NCBI GenBank assembly: GCA_017549085.1
Contig: JAFYVO010000279.1
Location: 1-11,140 of the forward strand
Source of the DNA: Thermoguttaceae bacterium
GTDB lineage: Bacteria; Planctomycetota; Planctomycetia; Pirellulales; Thermoguttaceae
Length of the DNA: 11,140 bases
Direction: 5' to 3'
In this document: positions 2,655-10,519 of the stretch, one piece after another
How the letters are laid out: every line of letters begins with the position of its first letter
Position numbering within the stretch: the stretch's first letter is position 1
Made by a program: the position numbers and the translations under genes
The notes under the pieces: generated by a model
Told to the model about the DNA's origin: nothing
The model's input: only the letters and a program-made list of their open reading frames with translations
Databases searched by the model: none

Positions 2655-3866
2655 CTATTGAATGTCTTCGAGTTTGACCCAGCAGCGTTCGGCGATCGAT
2701 TTATCGCAAGCGGCCAAGGTGCGTTGGACGTTGTACGCGTCGCGGAAGGTCGCGATCGGGGATTCGCTTTCGTAAGCGACGCCCTTGTTGAGCGCGTCGA
2801 TGGCGCGAAGGTTTTCGAGGACGCCGTAGACGGTGATGTCGCGGTAACCGATCATGTGACCGTCGGCGAAGTCGAAGTAGTTGCCGTAAACCGCGCGGTT
2901 CGTGCAGATCTTGCTCCAACCCCAGAGTTGCGGATCTTCGGCGGTTTTGTCGAAGACTTCGAGGTAGTTCATGTCGTCGAAGCAGAACTTAATCGTACCT
3001 TTTTCGAAGCGGAGTTCGTAACCGTTTTGGTTTTCCGAACCGCAAGCGTTGCGGGTGACGGAGAGGGTCCCGATGGCGGAGTTGTCGTCCAACGTGAACA
3101 TAACGCGCATCGCGTCGTCGACGTCGCAGTCGCGGATTTCGAAATCGTCTTGAGCTTGCGCGCCGGCGCCCATGTTGCTCAATTGCGACGCGAAGGTTTT
3201 CTTCCATTTGCGTTGTTTGACGTGCGTCGCTTGCATCGCGCAGAGTTCGATCGGGCGAAGACCGGTGATGTAGTAGAGCATGTCGAGGGAGTGCGAACCG
3301 AGGTCGCCCGCGGCGCCGCCGCCGTGCGATTTTTCGAAGCGCCAGCTGCCGTCGGCGCCCCAACCCCAACCTTGGTTGTAGAACATGCGGGCTTCGATCA
3401 AGCGGCCGAATTTGCCCGAACGCGCCAGTTTGCGAGCGTAAACGTTCGCCGGAACGCGACGATAAATGAAGTTGACGCTGTTCAATTGGCCTTTGCAAGC
3501 GTCCGCTTTGTCGGCCATTTCGCGACCTTGTTCAAGGTTCGCGGAGAGCGGTTTTTCGCAGAAGACGTGTTTGCCGGCGTCGAAAGCGGCCATCGCGGCG
3601 GCGTAGTGCGCGGCGTTCGGCAAGCAGATGTCGACGTAATCGGTGTCGGCTTTCGCGATAACTTCTTTCGAAGCGTCCGGGCCGACGATCGCTTTCCAAC
3701 CGTCGCGTTCCGCCATCGCTTTTTCAGCGTCGTTCCAGCAGGACGCGTAACCGAGAACCGGTTGAATCGGAGCATTCTTGAAGTAGCCGACGACGCCGCG
3801 GTACGCCAAGCTGCGAATGACGCCCATCATACCGTAACCCAAAACCGATACGTTCAAATTATCCAT
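2655..3866 (-). CDS. Gfo/Idh/MocA family oxidoreductase (paralogue 2)
   Basis: This 403-residue protein is a predicted cytoplasmic NAD(P)-dependent oxidoreductase of unknown substrate, probably sugar-like. The cofactor motif GYGMMG is at residues 10-15, EKP at 104-106 and the active-site block DLGSHSLD at 188-195. The C-terminal domain carries DVDDAM near 248-253 and TRNACGSEN near 271-279. I chose the ATG at 3866 because a GAGGA box (3873-3877) lies six bases upstream and the Rossmann strand begins at once. The in-frame ATG at 3917 would add 17 residues that do not look like part of the fold. A well-formed promoter lies at 3968-3996. The gene is co-directional with its paralogue at 1022-2224, but 430 bp of terminator-like and promoter-like sequence between them suggest separate units. 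Together they may act on related substrates or consecutive steps. Confidence 0.92.
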   Translation of the reverse strand: MDNLNVSVLGYGMMGVIRSLAYRGVVGYFKNAPIQPVLGYASCWNDAEKAMAERDGWKAIVGPDASKEVIAKADTDYVDICLPNAAHYAAAMAAFDAGKHVFCEKPLSANLEQGREMADKADACKGQLNSVNFIYRRVPANVYARKLARSGKFGRLIEARMFYNQGWGWGADGSWRFEKSHGGGAAGDLGSHSLDMLYYITGLRPIELCAMQATHVKQRKWKKTFASQLSNMGAGAQAQDDFEIRDCDVDDAMRVMFTLDDNSAIGTLSVTRNACGSENQNGYELRFEKGTIKFCFDDMNYLEVFDKTAEDPQLWGWSKICTNRAVYGNYFDFADGHMIGYRDITVYGVLENLRAIDALNKGVAYESESPIATFRDAYNVQRTLAACDKSIAERCWVKLEDIQ

Positions 3867-3967
3867 TAAAAATCCTCTATCGCTTGATAAAGCCGGTAAA
3901 ATATTCCATTTACGCAAAGTACTCGCGCCGCCGACAAGTTAACGTCGCTCCGGCGCTCTTTTCGCTC

Positions 3968-4217: not shown

Positions 4218-5117
4218 ATGACGACTCAACGCCTCTCGACCGGCGTTCCCGGTCTCGACGAACATCTTGGCGGCGGCTTGATTCCCGGAACGACGACCGC
4301 GCTCGTCGGAAGCTCCGGCGCCGGTAAAACGCAGTTCGGACTCCAATTTCTCAACGCCGGCCTCGCCGCGCCGGAAGGGCGACGCGGGATTCTGCTCGAC
4401 CTCACCGCTCGCGGCGACTCGCAAAATCACGCGGCTTACGCCAAATCGCTTTTCGGGTGGGAACCGGTCGAAGAACTCGGCGACCGTTCGTTCGACCCGG
4501 CGGAGTTCTTCGCGAAAATCGCCGCGAACGAACGCTTTGCGGGAGACTACTTTCACGCCTTTTCGCAAGCGGGGCGGCGCGTTACCCGTCGCGACCTCGG
4601 CGACGACGCTTGGCGCGAGTGGAAACTCGATTTGACGAAGCGTTTGCAGTCGACGATCGCGTTCCTTTACGCGAACTTTGCGCAGGGCGCGCGGCGGCTC
4701 GTCGTCGACGGCGTCGAACCGGTCGAACGCCAAGGGGACTCGATTCAGTTCGAAATGCTCGAATACGTCGAGCGGCAGATCGTCAAGAAAGAGTCGGCTT
4801 GGGTCGCTCGCGATCTTTTCCGACAAAACTTCCGCGAATTTGAGGCGCAAATCGGGCCCCAACCCTACCCGGAAACCGAAATCGGAACGCTTTTCTCGTA
4901 CACCGCGCCGGAAACGTCGCTCGACGCGCTGATCGAAAAACCGCTCGAAGAAGGCGACTTCTTCGCCCAAGCGAACACGGTGATTTATCTCGGTAAAATC
5001 CGCGACGGGCGCAAGTTCCGACGCGCGCTTTATATCATGAAGCACCGCGGTTCCGCTTGCTCCGACGAAATTTTATTTTACGAAATCGACGACGCCGGCC
5101 TGAAAATCGTCGACTGA
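4218..5117 (+). CDS. Single-domain KaiC/RAD55-like RecA-superfamily ATPase
   Basis: This 299-residue protein has one RecA-type domain. It opens with the KaiC-family start STGVPGLDEHLGGGLIPG (residues 7-24). Walker A GSSGAGKT follows at 31-38, with Walker B RLVVDGV at 160-166 (Asp164). The end resembles KaiC domains: YIMKHRGSACSDEI near 272-285, then a terminal beta strand DDAGLKIVD. Two-domain KaiC is about 500 residues, so this is the single-domain form, with an insertion of roughly 80 residues between the second strand and Walker B. The catalytic Glu pair that KaiC proteins carry after the second strand is not visible; LLDLTARGD (59-67) stands there instead. No membrane segment is seen. The start is supported by the motif beginning at residue 7, and the upstream -10 box leaves no room for a longer form. 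It is 46 bp from the sulfotransferase and probably co-transcribed. Its partner and role are unknown; clock function is not implied. Confidence 0.85.
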   Translation: MTTQRLSTGVPGLDEHLGGGLIPGTTTALVGSSGAGKTQFGLQFLNAGLAAPEGRRGILLDLTARGDSQNHAAYAKSLFGWEPVEELGDRSFDPAEFFAKIAANERFAGDYFHAFSQAGRRVTRRDLGDDAWREWKLDLTKRLQSTIAFLYANFAQGARRLVVDGVEPVERQGDSIQFEMLEYVERQIVKKESAWVARDLFRQNFREFEAQIGPQPYPETEIGTLFSYTAPETSLDALIEKPLEEGDFFAQANTVIYLGKIRDGRKFRRALYIMKHRGSACSDEILFYEIDDAGLKIVD

Positions 5118-5163: not shown

Positions 5164-6324
5164 ATGAAAAACGATAAAAACAACAAAAAAACGTCGTCCA
5201 TCGTTAAAATGACGACCGGAGGAAGCGCCGACCGCTTTTGGAATCCGCGCATGTGGGACGGCGTCACCGTTTCCGCTTGGCTGAAAATTTTGAACGCCGG
5301 TCGTTGGCGGGTCGCGCCGACGCGCTTTCCGATGTTCTGCGTCGTTTCCGGATTGGCGTTGACCAACTCGTGTTTGGCCGGTTGGCAAAAGCTGACTCGC
5401 GGGAAGAAAATTCGGAACGCTCAACTCGTCGACGCGCCGGTCTTTATCGTCGGACACTGGCGCAGCGGCACGACGCTCCTGCACGAGTACATGATGCGCG
5501 ACGATCGCTTCGCTTGCTCCGACACTTACGACTGTTTCGCGCCGGCGCACCTCCTCGTTTCCGGGCCCCATTTCCGTCCTTGGGTCAAGTACCTGATGCC
5601 AAAAAAGCGTCCGATGGACAATATGGCCGTCGGGCTCGACCGTCCGCAAGAAGACGAGTTCGCCGTCTGCGCGCTCGGGGCGCCGTCGCCGTACCGCGAA
5701 ATCGCCTTCCCGAACAACGCTCGTATCGACGCGGATTATTTGACGCTCCGCAATTTGAACGACGCCGACCGTTCCCGTTGGCTCGACGCGCTCGAATACT
5801 TCCTTAAAGCGTTGACGGTCGGTCGCGGCAAGCGGATTATTTTGAAGTCGCCGCCGCACACCGCTCGCGTCCGCGCGATTTTGGAGCGTTTCCCGAACGC
5901 GAAATTCGTTCACATTTCCCGCGACCCGTTCGCGCTCTTCCCGTCGACGGTCAACCTTTGGAAAAAGCTCGCCGCGACGCACGGCTTGCAGTCGCCCAAG
6001 GGAGGCGCCCCGCTCGAAGAGAAGGTTTTGAGCGACTTCGAAGCGATGTACGACGCGTTCTTCCAAGACGTCGACCTCGTTCCGCAAGGCTCGTTCTGCG
6101 AAATTTCCTACGACGAGCTGGTCGCCGCGCCGGTCGAAACGCTCGAACGGATTTACGCCGAGTTGGGAATCGAAGGGTTCGACGGTCGCCGTCAAGCGTT
6201 CGAAGAGTTCGCGTCGACGCAAAAGAAGTACCAAAAGAACAAATTCGAACTCGCGCCGGAAATCAAAGAAACGATTTCGCGCCGTTGGAAGGCTTACTTC
6301 GACCGCTATTATCCTTCGAAATAA
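5164..6324 (+). CDS. Sulfotransferase family protein
   Basis: This 386-residue protein is a predicted PAPS-dependent sulfotransferase that moves a sulfo group to a hydroxyl or amino acceptor. The 5'-phosphosulfate loop GHWRSGTTLL is at residues 97-106. The 3'-phosphate-binding motif HISRDPFALFPS is at 250-261, with Arg253 and Ser261 as the expected contacts. KSPPHT at 228-233 and the block RPMDNMAVGLDRPQEDEF at 149-166 are typical of the long bacterial forms common in planctomycetes. A moderately hydrophobic stretch near residues 55-74 may associate with the membrane but is not a clear transmembrane helix. The ATG at 5164 gives a Lys/Asn-rich leader; the ATG at 5209 (residue 16) is an alternative, and neither has a strong ribosome binding site. 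It follows the ATPase by 46 bp and is closed by a strong terminator. The acceptor is unknown. Confidence 0.9.
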   Translation: MKNDKNNKKTSSIVKMTTGGSADRFWNPRMWDGVTVSAWLKILNAGRWRVAPTRFPMFCVVSGLALTNSCLAGWQKLTRGKKIRNAQLVDAPVFIVGHWRSGTTLLHEYMMRDDRFACSDTYDCFAPAHLLVSGPHFRPWVKYLMPKKRPMDNMAVGLDRPQEDEFAVCALGAPSPYREIAFPNNARIDADYLTLRNLNDADRSRWLDALEYFLKALTVGRGKRIILKSPPHTARVRAILERFPNAKFVHISRDPFALFPSTVNLWKKLAATHGLQSPKGGAPLEEKVLSDFEAMYDAFFQDVDLVPQGSFCEISYDELVAAPVETLERIYAELGIEGFDGRRQAFEEFASTQKKYQKNKFELAPEIKETISRRWKAYFDRYYPSK

Positions 6325-6346: not shown

Positions 6347-6387
6347 AAAAACGCCGCGTCGACGGTTAATCGACGCGGCGTTTTTTT
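6347..6387. terminator. Bidirectional intrinsic terminator between convergent genes
   Basis: A perfect 16-bp stem, AAAAACGCCGCGTCGA (6347-6362) with TCGACGCGGCGTTTTT (6370-6385), encloses the loop CGGTTAA and ends in seven T on the plus strand (6381-6387). On the minus strand it ends in five T, so it can also stop transcripts of the esterase gene that ends at 6418. It is the strongest hairpin in the window. Confidence 0.9.
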
Positions 6388-6417: not shown

Positions 6418-9400
6418 TTACTTCGCTTCCGCTTTCGATTTCGACAGGAGCCAAGTATAAAGATCGGCTTCCGCGTAAGCGTTGATCCAGCTGTTGTGAC
6501 CGACGCCGGGATAAATCGTCAGTTTCGCTTCTTCGTTTCCGACCGCTTTGACGGCGTCGATCATCCGTTGCGACGCGCCGAGCGGAACCGCTTTGTCTTG
6601 GTCGCCGTGGAAGGCCCAAATCGGCGTCGACGCCATCTTCGAAGCCGCGTCGGCGTTCCCGCCTCCGCAGATCGGAGCCGCCGCCGCGATCTTTTCCGGG
6701 CATTCGGCGAGAAGATTCCACGTCCCGTAACCGCCCATCGAAACGCCGGTTACGTAAACGCGACTTTTGTCGATCGGATACTTTTCGCAAAGTTCGTCGA
6801 TCATCGCGCTAAGTTGCGGCGCCGACCAAGCGACGTTGCGCGGACATTGCGGCGACACGGTGAAGAACTTCCAGTTTTTCGCGCCCTCTTCCTTCGAGCA
6901 AATTTGCGGCGGGCCGTAATTTTTCAGGAGTTCGAGGTTTTCGCCGCGTTCGCCCGAACCGTGCAGGAACAACATCAGCGGGAAACCGGCGTCCGTCTTC
7001 GCCGACTCGTCGCTCGGTTGGAAGACGTAATATTTCAGCGTTTCGGTCTTCGTTTCGTCGAGTTTGTCCGCGGCGCCGCGAGCGCGAACGACCGCCGGAA
7101 GCTCGATCGACGCGGCGACGAGTTCCCCGGCTTTCGGCGTTTCGTCGACGGCGACCGGCTCGACTTTCGCCGGTTTCGCGCTCAAACGTTTCGAGAGCAA
7201 CCACTTATAAAGCTCTTCGTCGGCGTAGGCGTTCGTCCAAGAGTCGTGCCCGACGCCTTCGTAAATCGTCAGTTTCGCTTCCGGGTTCCCGGCTTTTTGG
7301 TTCGCTTCGATCATCGCTTTCGACATCCCGGGCGGAACGAGCGTGTCTTTGTCGCCGTGGAACGCCCAAATCGGCGTCGTCGCCATCTTCGCCGCCGCGT
7401 TCGGGTCGCCGCCGCCGCAAATCGGGGCCGCCGCCGCGATCTTTTCCGGGCATTCGGCCAAGAGCGACCAAGTCCCGAAACCGCCCATCGAAAGGCCGGT
7501 AACGTAAACGCGATCTTTGTCGACCGGATATTTCGCGCAAACGTCGTCGAGCATAACTTTAAGTTGCGTCGCCGACCACCAACCGTCCGGGAAACATTGC
7601 GGCGCGACGGTGAAGAACTTCCAAGTTTTCGCGCGTTCCGGATTGGCGCAAATCGCGGTCGGGCCGTAAATCTTCAAGCGATTCAAGTCGTCGCCGCGTT
7701 CGCCGATCCCGTGCAGGAAGATAAGGAGCGGAAAACCGGCGTCCGTTTTTTCCGATTCGTCGATCGGTTGGAACGTCAAATATTTCAGCGTTTGCGTTTT
7801 CGTTTCGTCGATCGATTCCGGTCCGAAGAGCCCGCCGAGTCGCTTCGAAAGCGGAACCTTCGTCGCGCCCGGAACGAGTTTCCCCGCTTGCGGCGTTTCG
7901 TCGACGACGACCGGTTCGACCTTCGCCGGTTTGCCGCTGATTCGCTTCGAAAGGAGCCAAGTATAGAGGTCGGCTTCCGCGTAAGCGTTGATCCAGCTGT
8001 CGTGCCCGACGCCCGGATAGACCGTCAATTTCGCGTCCGGGTTTCCGGCTCGTTTGTTCGCGTCGATCATCGTTTGCGATTGTTCGAGGCGAACGACCGG
8101 GTCTTTATCGCCGTGGAACGCCCAAATCGGCGTCGTCGCCATTTTCGGCGCGGCGTTCGGGTCCCCTCCGGCGCAAATCGGCGCGGCGGCCGCGATCTTT
8201 TCCGGACAAGTCGCCAAGAGCGACCAAGTCCCGAAACCGCCCATCGAGACGCCGGTAACGTAAACGCGGTCGCGGTCGACCGGGTAAAGTTCGCAAACCT
8301 TATCGATCATAACGCTAAGTTGCGCCGCCGACCACCAACCGTTCGTCGGGCATTGCGGCGCGACGGTGAAAAACTTCCAATCTTTCGCGCTCTCCGCCTT
8401 CGAGCAGTACATCGCCGGGCCGTACTTTTTCAACAGCTCCAAATTGTCGCCGCGTTCCCCCGCGCCGTGCAGCATCAACATCAACGGGAAGCCCGCGTCC
8501 GTCTTCGCCGATTCGTCGCTCGGTTGGAAGACGTAATACTTCAGCGTTTCCGTCGCGCTCTCGTCGAGCGTTTCGGGGCCGCGTCGCCCGCCGTCGCGCT
8601 TGACCGCCGGAAGTTCGATCGACGCCGCGATCAACTCGCCCGCCTTGGGGCTCGCGTCGGCGGCGACCGGCTCGACCTTCGCCGGTTTCGAGCTAATCCG
8701 CTTCGAAAGGAGCCAAGTATAGAGGTCGGCTTCCGCGTAAGCGTTGATCCAACTATTGTGCCCGACGCCGGGGTAAACGGTCAGTTTCGCGTCCGGGTTC
8801 CCCGCTTTTTTGTTCGCGTCGATCATAATTTGCGACGAAGCGAGGCGCACCGCTTGGTCTTTATCGCCGTGAAACGCCCAAATCGGCGTCGTCGCCGTTT
8901 TCACCGCGTCGTTCGGATTCCCCCAACCGCAAATCGGCGCGGCGGCCGCGATCTTCTCCGGCGCCCGGGCAAGAAGGGACCAAGTCCCAAAACCGCCCAT
9001 CGAAACGCCGGTAACGTAAACGCGGTCGCGGTCGATCGGGTAAAGTTCGCAAACTTTGTCGATCATAACGCTCATCTGCGCCGACGACCAACGAACGCCC
9101 GCCGGACATTGCGGCGCGACGGTGAAGAACTTCCAATCTTTCGCGCTCTCCGCCTTCGAGCAACACATAACCGGGCCGTATTGTTTCAACAGCTCCAAAT
9201 TGTCGCCGCGTTCCCCCGCGCCGTGCAAGACCAACATCAACGGAAAACCCGCGTCGGTCTTTTCCGATTCGTCGGACGGTTGGAAGACCCAATATTTTAC
9301 CGCTTCCGTTTCGTTTTCGAGGAGCGTTTCGGAGTCGCGCCCCCCCTTTTCGCGCTCGACTTTCGGGAGTTCGATCGACGCCGCGACCAGTTCCCCCGCT

Positions 9401-9495
9401 TTCGGCGCCGAGTCGTTCGCCTCTTGCGCGAAAGCGCCCGCCGCGCAACAGAGCGCCGCGACGCAAAGCGCCGCAAATCGAATCGTTCGTTTCAT
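6418..9495 (-). CDS. Secreted four-domain esterase (tandem alpha/beta-hydrolases)
   Basis: This 1025-residue protein begins with a Sec signal peptide: Lys-Arg, then a hydrophobic Ala/Leu/Cys core, with probable cleavage after AFA at residue 23. Four complete alpha/beta-hydrolase domains of the COG4099/PHB-depolymerase-like esterase type follow, at about residues 31-265, 283-519, 534-770 and 786-1019. Each has an oxyanion loop HG.GERG, a nucleophile motif G(V/L)SMGG, an acid in HGD.D and a His in GVGH(N/D)SW. The triads are Ser165-Asp213-His246, Ser417-Asp465-His498, Ser669-Asp717-His750 and Ser919-Asp967-His1000. Linkers repeat KPAKVEPV..D..P.AG.L. Relatives cleave acyl or feruloyl-type esters, often on plant carbohydrates; the substrate here is inferred only by family. 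The ATG at 9495 is preferred over an upstream ATG at 9537 because it starts the signal peptide and has GAGG at 9501-9504, five bases upstream. The gene lies downstream of a single-domain paralogue. Confidence 0.9.
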   Translation of the reverse strand: MKRTIRFAALCVAALCCAAGAFAQEANDSAPKAGELVAASIELPKVEREKGGRDSETLLENETEAVKYWVFQPSDESEKTDAGFPLMLVLHGAGERGDNLELLKQYGPVMCCSKAESAKDWKFFTVAPQCPAGVRWSSAQMSVMIDKVCELYPIDRDRVYVTGVSMGGFGTWSLLARAPEKIAAAAPICGWGNPNDAVKTATTPIWAFHGDKDQAVRLASSQIMIDANKKAGNPDAKLTVYPGVGHNSWINAYAEADLYTWLLSKRISSKPAKVEPVAADASPKAGELIAASIELPAVKRDGGRRGPETLDESATETLKYYVFQPSDESAKTDAGFPLMLMLHGAGERGDNLELLKKYGPAMYCSKAESAKDWKFFTVAPQCPTNGWWSAAQLSVMIDKVCELYPVDRDRVYVTGVSMGGFGTWSLLATCPEKIAAAAPICAGGDPNAAPKMATTPIWAFHGDKDPVVRLEQSQTMIDANKRAGNPDAKLTVYPGVGHDSWINAYAEADLYTWLLSKRISGKPAKVEPVVVDETPQAGKLVPGATKVPLSKRLGGLFGPESIDETKTQTLKYLTFQPIDESEKTDAGFPLLIFLHGIGERGDDLNRLKIYGPTAICANPERAKTWKFFTVAPQCFPDGWWSATQLKVMLDDVCAKYPVDKDRVYVTGLSMGGFGTWSLLAECPEKIAAAAPICGGGDPNAAAKMATTPIWAFHGDKDTLVPPGMSKAMIEANQKAGNPEAKLTIYEGVGHDSWTNAYADEELYKWLLSKRLSAKPAKVEPVAVDETPKAGELVAASIELPAVVRARGAADKLDETKTETLKYYVFQPSDESAKTDAGFPLMLFLHGSGERGENLELLKNYGPPQICSKEEGAKNWKFFTVSPQCPRNVAWSAPQLSAMIDELCEKYPIDKSRVYVTGVSMGGYGTWNLLAECPEKIAAAAPICGGGNADAASKMASTPIWAFHGDQDKAVPLGASQRMIDAVKAVGNEEAKLTIYPGVGHNSWINAYAEADLYTWLLSKSKAEAK
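6439..9405 (-). repeat. Four-copy in-frame tandem repeat, about 756-bp unit
   Basis: The four esterase domains are encoded at about 9405-8701, 8649-7939, 7896-7186 and 7140-6439. The nucleophile serines are 252, 252 and 250 codons apart. Nucleotide identity is still visible: 53 identical bases at 7943-7995 and 8699-8751 lie exactly 756 bp apart. The repeat unit includes the linker, so whole linker-plus-domain units were duplicated. Confidence 0.88.
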
Positions 9496-9538
9496 TGTCG
9501 CCTCGTTTTGATTAATCGTTTCAATAATTACCGCCAAT

Positions 9539-9578
9539 AAAAAAACGCCGCCCGCGACGACGCGAAACGACGTTTTTT
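9539..9578 (-). terminator. Intrinsic terminator between the two esterase genes
   Basis: On the minus strand A6-CGTCG-TTT and GGGCGGCG-T6 can pair over about 14 bp with several G-T pairs, and the stem ends in seven T (9545-9539). It lies about 90 bases after the stop of the single-domain esterase and 44 bases before the start of the four-domain gene. The two genes are thus probably separate units, though read-through is possible. I could not find a convincing promoter for the four-domain gene in the short A/T-rich stretch 9496-9538. Confidence 0.6.
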
Positions 9579-9667: not shown

Positions 9668-10519
9668 TTATTTTTCGAGCTTTTTCGACAACAGCCAGCG
9701 GTAAAGTTCCGGGTTGTCGTAGGTTTGCGTCCAGCAGTTGTGATTGACGCCCGGGTACGTCGTGAATTGAATATCGTCGTTCCCCGCTTTTTTGACCGCT
9801 TCGACGAGGTTCTTCGTGTACTCGTACTTGACGGCGCCGTCCGCGTCGCCGTGGAACGTCCAGATCGGAGTTTTCGTCATCTTCGGCGCGAACTCGACGC
9901 CGTAACCGCCGCAGATCGGAGCCGCCGCCGCGATAATATCGGACGAGTGCGCGATCAGGCCCCAAGTCCCGAAACCGCCCATCGAAAGACCGGTAATGTA
10001 AATACGGGAACGGTCGACCGGATAGTTTTCGCAGATTTGGTCGATCAAAACGCGCAGCTGAGCCGGCGACCAGAAACGAACGCCCGGGCATTGCGGCGAA
10101 ACGGTCAGGAACGGCCAATCTTTCGCTTTTTCCGGTTTCGAGCAGATCATCGCCGGGCCGTGAACCTTCACTTTTTCCGGATTGTCGCCGCGTTCGCCCG
10201 CGCCGTGCAGGAAGAGGAGGAGCGGGAAGCCCGCGTCCGTTTTTTCCGCTTCGTTCGACGGGAGGAAGAACCAGAACTTCAGCGTTTCGGTCTTCGTTTC
10301 GTCGATCGGGTTCGGGCCGCCGAGCGGCATCGCGTCGCCGCCGGTCCAAGTCCCGCCGGTCGCGAGCGGAAGTTCCGCCGTCATCAAAATTTGTTCGCCC
10401 GCTTTCGGGGTCGGATTTTTTTCTTTCATCGTCTCCGCTTTCGCGACGCTTCCCGTCGAAAACGCGGCGCAAAGGGCCGCGAACGCGAGCGCCGACGTTA
10501 ATTTCGCAACGCTTTTCAT
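9668..10519 (-). CDS. Secreted single-domain esterase, paralogue of the four-domain protein
   Basis: This 283-residue alpha/beta-hydrolase of the COG4099-like type was probably exported by a Sec signal peptide: Lys near the start, an Ala/Leu core, and cleavage after AKA at about residue 28. The oxyanion loop HGAGERG is at 105-111. The nucleophile motif GLSMGG contains Ser179, HGDAD contains Asp227, and GVNHNCW contains His260. The spacing from Ser to Asp (48) and Ser to His (81) is the same as in every domain of the neighbouring four-domain protein. The stretch PIDETKTETLKF (71-82) is closest to that protein's domains 3 and 4. I chose the ATG at 10519 because it begins the signal peptide and has GGGAG (10529-10533) nine bases upstream; the longer in-frame start at 10687 would add an Arg-rich tail and cover the promoter. 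It differs from its neighbour in having Cys rather than Ser after the catalytic His-Asn. The substrate is unknown, probably an acylated carbohydrate or similar. Confidence 0.9.
   Translation of the reverse strand: MKSVAKLTSALAFAALCAAFSTGSVAKAETMKEKNPTPKAGEQILMTAELPLATGGTWTGGDAMPLGGPNPIDETKTETLKFWFFLPSNEAEKTDAGFPLLLFLHGAGERGDNPEKVKVHGPAMICSKPEKAKDWPFLTVSPQCPGVRFWSPAQLRVLIDQICENYPVDRSRIYITGLSMGGFGTWGLIAHSSDIIAAAAPICGGYGVEFAPKMTKTPIWTFHGDADGAVKYEYTKNLVEAVKKAGNDDIQFTTYPGVNHNCWTQTYDNPELYRWLLSKKLEK

Follow-up and report, generated by a model that had tools for sequence, protein, structure and literature searches.

Four complete esterase domains in one predicted polypeptide of a Thermoguttaceae bacterium, and the variation of domain number among its relatives

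Introduction

Why should a single bacterial polypeptide carry four complete copies of the same esterase domain? This question is raised by a gene in an 11,140-nt stretch of DNA (the window; contig JAFYVO010000279.1) from a Thermoguttaceae bacterium, the source being a metagenome-assembled genome (MAG) that is 65% complete and comprises 449 contigs. In the explanation to which we give about an even chance, the gene product would be an exported, 3doh-like serine esterase built as four beads, which removes esters from plant polysaccharide together with U, an esterase of one domain encoded next to it, and with a beta-helix protein and an apiosidase, and whose copies recombine and are kept active. 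Repeated catalytic domains as such are already known; new, as far as we searched, are a chain with one esterase type in four intact copies and a copy-number series within a genus, and no published description of such a four-copy esterase was found in the open-licence literature.

A gene with four complete esterase domains

The gene and its parts, all on the reverse strand, are listed here with residue numbers of the encoded protein of 1025 amino acids (aa); pLDDT is the predicted local distance difference test score.

6418..9495, reverse strand: four-domain esterase gene of 1025 aa, start codon ATG at 9495, stop codon TAA with its last base at 6418
9427..9495, reverse strand: signal-peptide-like N-terminus, residues 1-23, recognised by eye from the sequence (helix 2-27 in the model, with low confidence)
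8653..9408, reverse strand: unit D1, residues 30-281, with Ser165, Asp213 and His246
7897..8652, reverse strand: unit D2, residues 282-533, with Ser417, Asp465 and His498
7141..7896, reverse strand: unit D3, residues 534-785, with Ser669, Asp717 and His750
6421..7140, reverse strand: unit D4, residues 786-1025, with Ser919, Asp967 and His1000
8653..8691, reverse strand: linker 1, residues 269-281, pLDDT below 50
7903..7932, reverse strand: linker 2, residues 522-531, pLDDT below 50
7147..7179, reverse strand: linker 3, residues 773-783, pLDDT below 50

The triads were located through the motifs G-[VL]-SMGG (Ser), HGD-x-D (Asp) and GVGH (His). A preliminary description of the window had claimed four complete Ser/Asp/His triads at a fixed period, and all of its values were reproduced: Ser and Asp are 48 and Ser and His 81 residues apart in each of D1-D4, and successive nucleophiles are separated by 252, 252 and 250 residues. 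The linkers, likewise said to be repeated, indeed share the sequence KPAKVEPV followed by AG[EK]L. After the signal-like N-terminus, the units measured 252, 252, 252 and 239 residues in the sequence comparison; those used for family scans start one residue earlier. Because D1-D4 are pairwise 64-82% identical in amino acids and 72-84% in nucleotides, they form a true tandem repeat and not a chance resemblance, and the 1025-aa protein belongs among chains with at least two complete homologous catalytic domains. No k-mer of at least 61 bases is repeated within the gene, which makes a within-strain repeat artefact unlikely.

In the AlphaFold model the four domains fold separately, as beads joined by disordered linkers, and the secondary structure consists of four repeated alpha/beta units with no additional domain. 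Judged from the sequence and this model, the triads of D1-D4 would occupy the canonical alpha/beta-hydrolase positions in the order Ser-Asp-His. A Pfam scan of the 1025-aa protein found hydrolase-type families and no binding module, again as had been described.

Among solved structures, the esterases 3doh and 4q82 have the closest folds and tied with each other; 3wyd is also among the top structures. By sequence 3doh came first (phmmer E 9e-34, profile E 4.4e-68), and feruloyl esterases are present among the weaker profile and fold matches. The structure 3doh, which we take to be the Thermotoga maritima esterase EstA, shares the alpha/beta-hydrolase domain and the motifs HGAGERG and GLSMGGYGTW; there the match covers a single domain, placed C-terminally in a chain of 375-380 residues, whereas here four domains stand with no other module.

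Export of the four-domain protein, its esterase activity, its substrate and any benefit of linking the sites are inferred. The product would be a serine esterase that belongs with 3doh among the alpha/beta-hydrolases, its four catalytic beads joined by short flexible linkers. The likeliest action of each bead would be to remove small ester groups, with acetyl as the first candidate, from a polysaccharide of the plant cell wall in the gut of the herbivore, and the protein would probably cooperate with the adjacent U, the beta-helix protein and a GH140-like apiosidase on a pectin-type, apiose-bearing polymer. The copies would have arisen through in-frame duplication and recombination within the gene, their number still changing, and as all copies appear to be kept active, one exported chain would supply several active sites.

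Homologues and known systems

The preliminary description had suggested a search for other proteins with at least three tandem domains of this family. Protein searches against 5.8 billion proteins, which limited scoring to the 8000 candidates with the most shared words and admitted lengths of about 564-1794 aa, gave 770 and 871 matches, and the best 120 of each comprised 171 distinct proteins. Among these 171 homologues, at least three intact triads were found in three (P0001-P0003), all of the three-domain form of this clade, and two intact triads in 41, some by way of a distant second hydrolase domain; none has four. The metagenome protein P0122 (1006 aa) resembles the four-domain protein in having four tandem domains of the family and differs in that, by alignment, only one keeps Ser-Asp-His. 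P0019, P0040 and P0138 have three domains with one intact triad each, as read from the alignment. The triad-less domains of these four proteins are possibly pseudo-enzyme or scaffold domains.

By our count, PF06452, which we take to be a domain of carbohydrate-binding type, is carried by 56 of the 120 long homologues listed, in a length range (564-1794 aa) that favours fusions. In another set of proteins of about 1000 aa (P0017, P0018, P0022, P0025, P0027, P0028, P0031 and P0032) an N-terminal esterase domain of the family is accompanied by PF01841 and by another hydrolase domain, a distant one in which the motif GYSAG occurs.

Two published systems are comparable in their repeated catalytic domains. 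DmCE1B of Dysgonomonas mossii is a gut enzyme with two esterase domains per chain, each with a complete triad; it differs in that its two CE1 domains are just 35% alike with CBM48 between them, and the C-terminal domain is nearly inactive on the test substrates (PMC8040265). In norcoclaurine synthase fusions an active catalytic domain is present in two to four copies per chain; catalytic efficiency rises in proportion to domain number, and some fusions include incomplete, inactive domains; these are plant alkaloid enzymes that catalyse another reaction, not bacterial esterases (PMC5171800).

Domain number among relatives

The nearest named relatives, all Thermoguttaceae MAGs, come from water buffalo cecum, goat rectum, water deer rectum and roe deer colon; the planctomycete MAG RUG11796 follows. 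The esterase family was found in all 20 genomes of the window's genus. Counted on the longest esterase reading frame per genome, four domains occur in one of the 20 (G000, the window's genome), three in five (G009, G010, G015, G017 and G019) and two in 11 (G001, G002, G003, G005, G006, G007, G011, G013, G014, G016 and G018), while two genomes (G004 and G012) have single-domain genes only. In G008 the longest frame holds two complete domains and a piece at the contig end. This natural series of one to four similar linked sites in sister genomes offers a ready test of dosage, avidity or split specificity, and contrasts with the four-domain relative P0122, in which three copies lack the triad.

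A family-wide search covered 119 genomes, the genus included, and gave a match at E 1e-40 in 74. Outside the genus, one locus was read from each of 13 family genomes, and no frame with more than one domain was found there, some frames ending at contig ends. In the named genome collection, at least two complete domains in one frame were seen in 7 of the best 80 of 139 loci, and all seven are from this genus. Six loci with two matches per frame (L061, L093, L096, L099, L100 and L107) were interpreted as having a single domain that the search matched in two pieces. As far as we looked, relatives are thus normally single-domain, as had been supposed. In G093, which belongs to a different genus of the family, the locus holds a row of five esterase genes, separate and with one domain each (L160 6187-13179, reverse strand); three have N-terminal extensions, and one begins with an LEERHLL motif.

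Evolution of the repeats

The gene U, overlooked in the preliminary description, ends 172 bp upstream of the four-domain gene on the same strand and is 54-58% identical to D1-D4.

9668..10519, reverse strand: U, a fifth, single-domain esterase gene, 283 aa, triad intact

A tree of 72 domains was made by a quick method, with several long branches flagged. In it one group (support 98) unites D1-D4 with their orthologues, and the domains, both first and second, of the two-domain proteins found at the U locus lie apart from it. This suggests that domain multiplication occurred more than once. The three-domain forms are composed of D1, a mosaic domain and D3 in G010, and of D2-D3-D4 in G009, G015, G017 and G019; in G014 a U-type domain is fused to one of the second-domain type. 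Moreover, about 40 codons of D4 in G017 and G019 match the middle domain of G010 at 92-98%, against 70-80% for four other D4s, with D4-like flanks, and in the second half of this segment other D1 and D2 domains are also near (88-93%). A window-wise nearest-group scan did not flag the exchange, as both carriers match each other; a focused comparison did. The domains evidently exchange segments.

Triad residues are intact in 91 of the 92 domains scored, and in 65 of 65 within the genus. Domains were detected with a profile of the same family, and two fragments shorter than 150 residues (G008 and G010) were omitted. The ratio of nonsynonymous to synonymous substitutions (dN/dS) between orthologues ranges from 0.08 to 0.41 over 47 pairs (D2 10, D3 21, D4 15 and D1 1, the mosaic domain left out), which supports purifying selection on the copies. 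The earlier interpretation, in which four active copies in series would serve high local activity or multivalent action on a polymeric ester, is supported in part, namely as to the four complete triads and the purifying selection. As an account of selection for four copies it was too simple, as one to four copies occur within the genus and the domains recombine.

Each of the four sites could instead be tuned to a different ester or polymer position, as in fused acetyl-feruloyl esterases. We consider this possible, on the unlikely side. Thirty-one columns are constant within each of the four groups but vary among D1-D4 (with two sequences for D1), and several stand beside catalytic motifs: x in LHG-x-GER is A, A, I and S in D1-D4, and positions 416, 421, 469, 472 and 499 belong here as well. 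CE6-CE1 fusions, in which fused esterase domains can act synergistically, provide a precedent (PMC7110780). However, 119 of 248 columns are invariant across D1-D4, and three-domain relatives without D1 or D4 indicate that no fixed set of copies is required.

The 31 columns also speak against a neutral copy number, in which unequal recombination adds or removes domains and the copies are active merely because they are young or homogenised by gene conversion. This explanation would account for the varying number among close relatives, for the segment exchange and for the G014 fusion of U-type and second-domain-type, which is what deletion would be expected to leave. We nevertheless regard it as unlikely, in view of the low orthologue dN/dS over D1-D4 (a single pair for D1), of triad loss in none of the 65 genus domains scored, and of the decay that tandem copies elsewhere (P0122, P0138, P0040 and P0019) do undergo.

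As a more speculative extension of the reading with recombining, active copies, the array might act as an adjustable comb: unequal recombination and conversion within the gene would alter the number and flavour of sites, giving avid multi-point ester removal from apiose-bearing pectin and replacing a carbohydrate-binding module. We hold this to be quite doubtful.

A chimeric assembly, in which three-domain genes of two strains (D1-x-D3 and D2-D3-D4) were joined into the four-domain form, appears improbable. Both three-domain forms do occur in relatives, the MAG is incomplete and divided over many contigs, and the four-domain form was seen in one genome alone. Yet the gene lacks a repeated 61-mer and no part of it looks foreign: D1 compared with D1 of G010 has a dS of 0.24, and the two genes convergent to the esterase gene, for a KaiC-like ATPase (4218-5117, forward strand) and a sulfotransferase (5164-6324, forward strand), are 89.5-91.3% identical to those of six clade relatives. 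Both adjoin the esterase gene in all seven genomes of the three- to four-domain clade. The tree of these two genes (eight genomes) had no fork at the support mark, with a very long outgroup of odd composition, and four domains may be either ancestral or gained.

Family assignment

The Pfam matches are to broad alpha/beta-hydrolase families, and PF00326 (Peptidase_S9) scores above its cut-off in each of D1-D4. An S9-like peptidase would agree with this, and COG4099 bears the name 'predicted peptidase'. The top structures 3doh, 4q82 and 3wyd are esterases, however, and the model shows only the four alpha/beta units and no further domain, so that a peptidase seems very improbable. A Pfam match to a Dyp peroxidase fragment (20.5 bits) is marginal and falls inside a hydrolase domain.

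The name (short-chain) polyhydroxyalkanoate (PHA) depolymerase, to which NCBIfam leads, was rejected as the least probable of all: the whole chain exceeds the cut-offs of NF050058, extracellular PHA depolymerase type 1 (246.9 bits against 150), and TIGR01840 (169.1 against 107.85) only through the summed scores of four copies, single domains D1-D4 reaching 67.1, 73.2, 68.4 and 73.5 with the former and 45-53 with the latter. Such summing is an annotation trap, which lifts this protein above the PHA depolymerase cut-off.

Gene neighbourhood and probable substrate

In G009, G015 and G017 the gene order is apiosidase-like gene, beta-helix gene, U and three-domain gene, and the same order, divided over contigs, is found in G010 and G019. 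The apiosidase-like protein (GH140-like) matches PDB 8t9w at E 1.8e-129 and also PF13204, a family present in 17 of the 20 genus genomes. The beta-helix gene stands beside U, with at most one predicted gene between them, in 13 genomes (G001-G005, G007, G009, G011, G012, G014, G015, G017 and G019; in G014 U is the fused form), and G010 is a fourteenth by way of a second contig. In G018 the beta-helix gene is nearby on the opposite strand, and in G006 none was seen near U. The esterase contigs of G000, G008, G013 and G016 end too early to show this neighbour, that of the window 621 bp upstream of U. Another contig of the window's genome ends within the beta-helix gene, and there an ankyrin-repeat gene separates it from the apiosidase gene. 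This large gene (L175 515-2947, reverse strand, contig C176) is not at that place in G009, G010, G015, G017 or G019.

Bacteroides breaks down one pectin, rhamnogalacturonan II, with both a pectin methylesterase of the alpha/beta-hydrolase fold (BT1017) and a beta-apiosidase (BT1012) (PMC7939467). This pair resembles our case in combining a serine esterase of this fold with a beta-apiosidase on pectin; BT1017 differs in that its catalytic domain is single and is accompanied by a cap domain, zinc and DUF3826, and no sequence link is shown here (PMC7939467). The BT1017-type structure 6GOC was not among the 60 of 281 profile matches listed, and no direct comparison with BT1017 was made. Because of the apiosidase/beta-helix neighbourhood and this precedent, a pectin-type ester is our leading guess for the substrate, at somewhat less than an even chance. 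If the neighbourhood is functional, a candidate pectin-ester system would be added in gut Planctomycetota.

Several points weigh against a four-bead esterase acting on pectin with these partners. The Pfam matches are generic, with peptidase S9 among them, and no activity data for close homologues were found. G004 and G012 show that fusion is not needed by all. The apiosidase gene and the truncated beta-helix gene of the window's genome lie on another contig, their adjacency being taken from relatives, and outside the three- to four-domain clade PF13204 occurs on non-esterase contigs (10 two-domain genomes with PF13204). The beta-helix protein had a phage tail fibre as its single worthwhile PDB match (E 1e-8) and thus no informative solved relative; its NCBIfam matches, rhamnogalacturonidase and polygalacturonase among them, are far under cut-off. 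Finally, a GH10 xylanase is present in 19 of the 20 genus genomes at mostly strong scores, and GH28 in all 20 at no more than 46 bits, so that xylan stays a possible substrate; the chief alternative to a pectin-type ester is acetate or ferulate on xylan.

Other features of the window

Scans of the region gave 15 terminator-like sites against 13.5 expected, no promoter-like site (1.0 expected by chance) and no RNA family at the gathering threshold. Two of the terminator-like hairpins flank the four-domain gene.

9545..9563, reverse strand: terminator-like hairpin in the gap that separates U from the four-domain gene, consensus match only
6347..6385, no strand assigned: terminator-like hairpin of 16 pairs in the gap between the esterase gene and the sulfotransferase gene convergent to it, consensus match only

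Because of the first of these consensus matches, U and the four-domain gene may not form one transcript.

Farther along the window are two adjacent genes of Gfo/Idh/MocA-type oxidoreductases (1025-2224 and 2658-3917, both reverse strand), which match a levoglucosan dehydrogenase model well under its cut-off. Opposite the esterase gene runs an antisense open frame of 1014 aa (6496-9540, forward strand); there are more long antisense frames in the window, and it is probably a by-product of codon bias.
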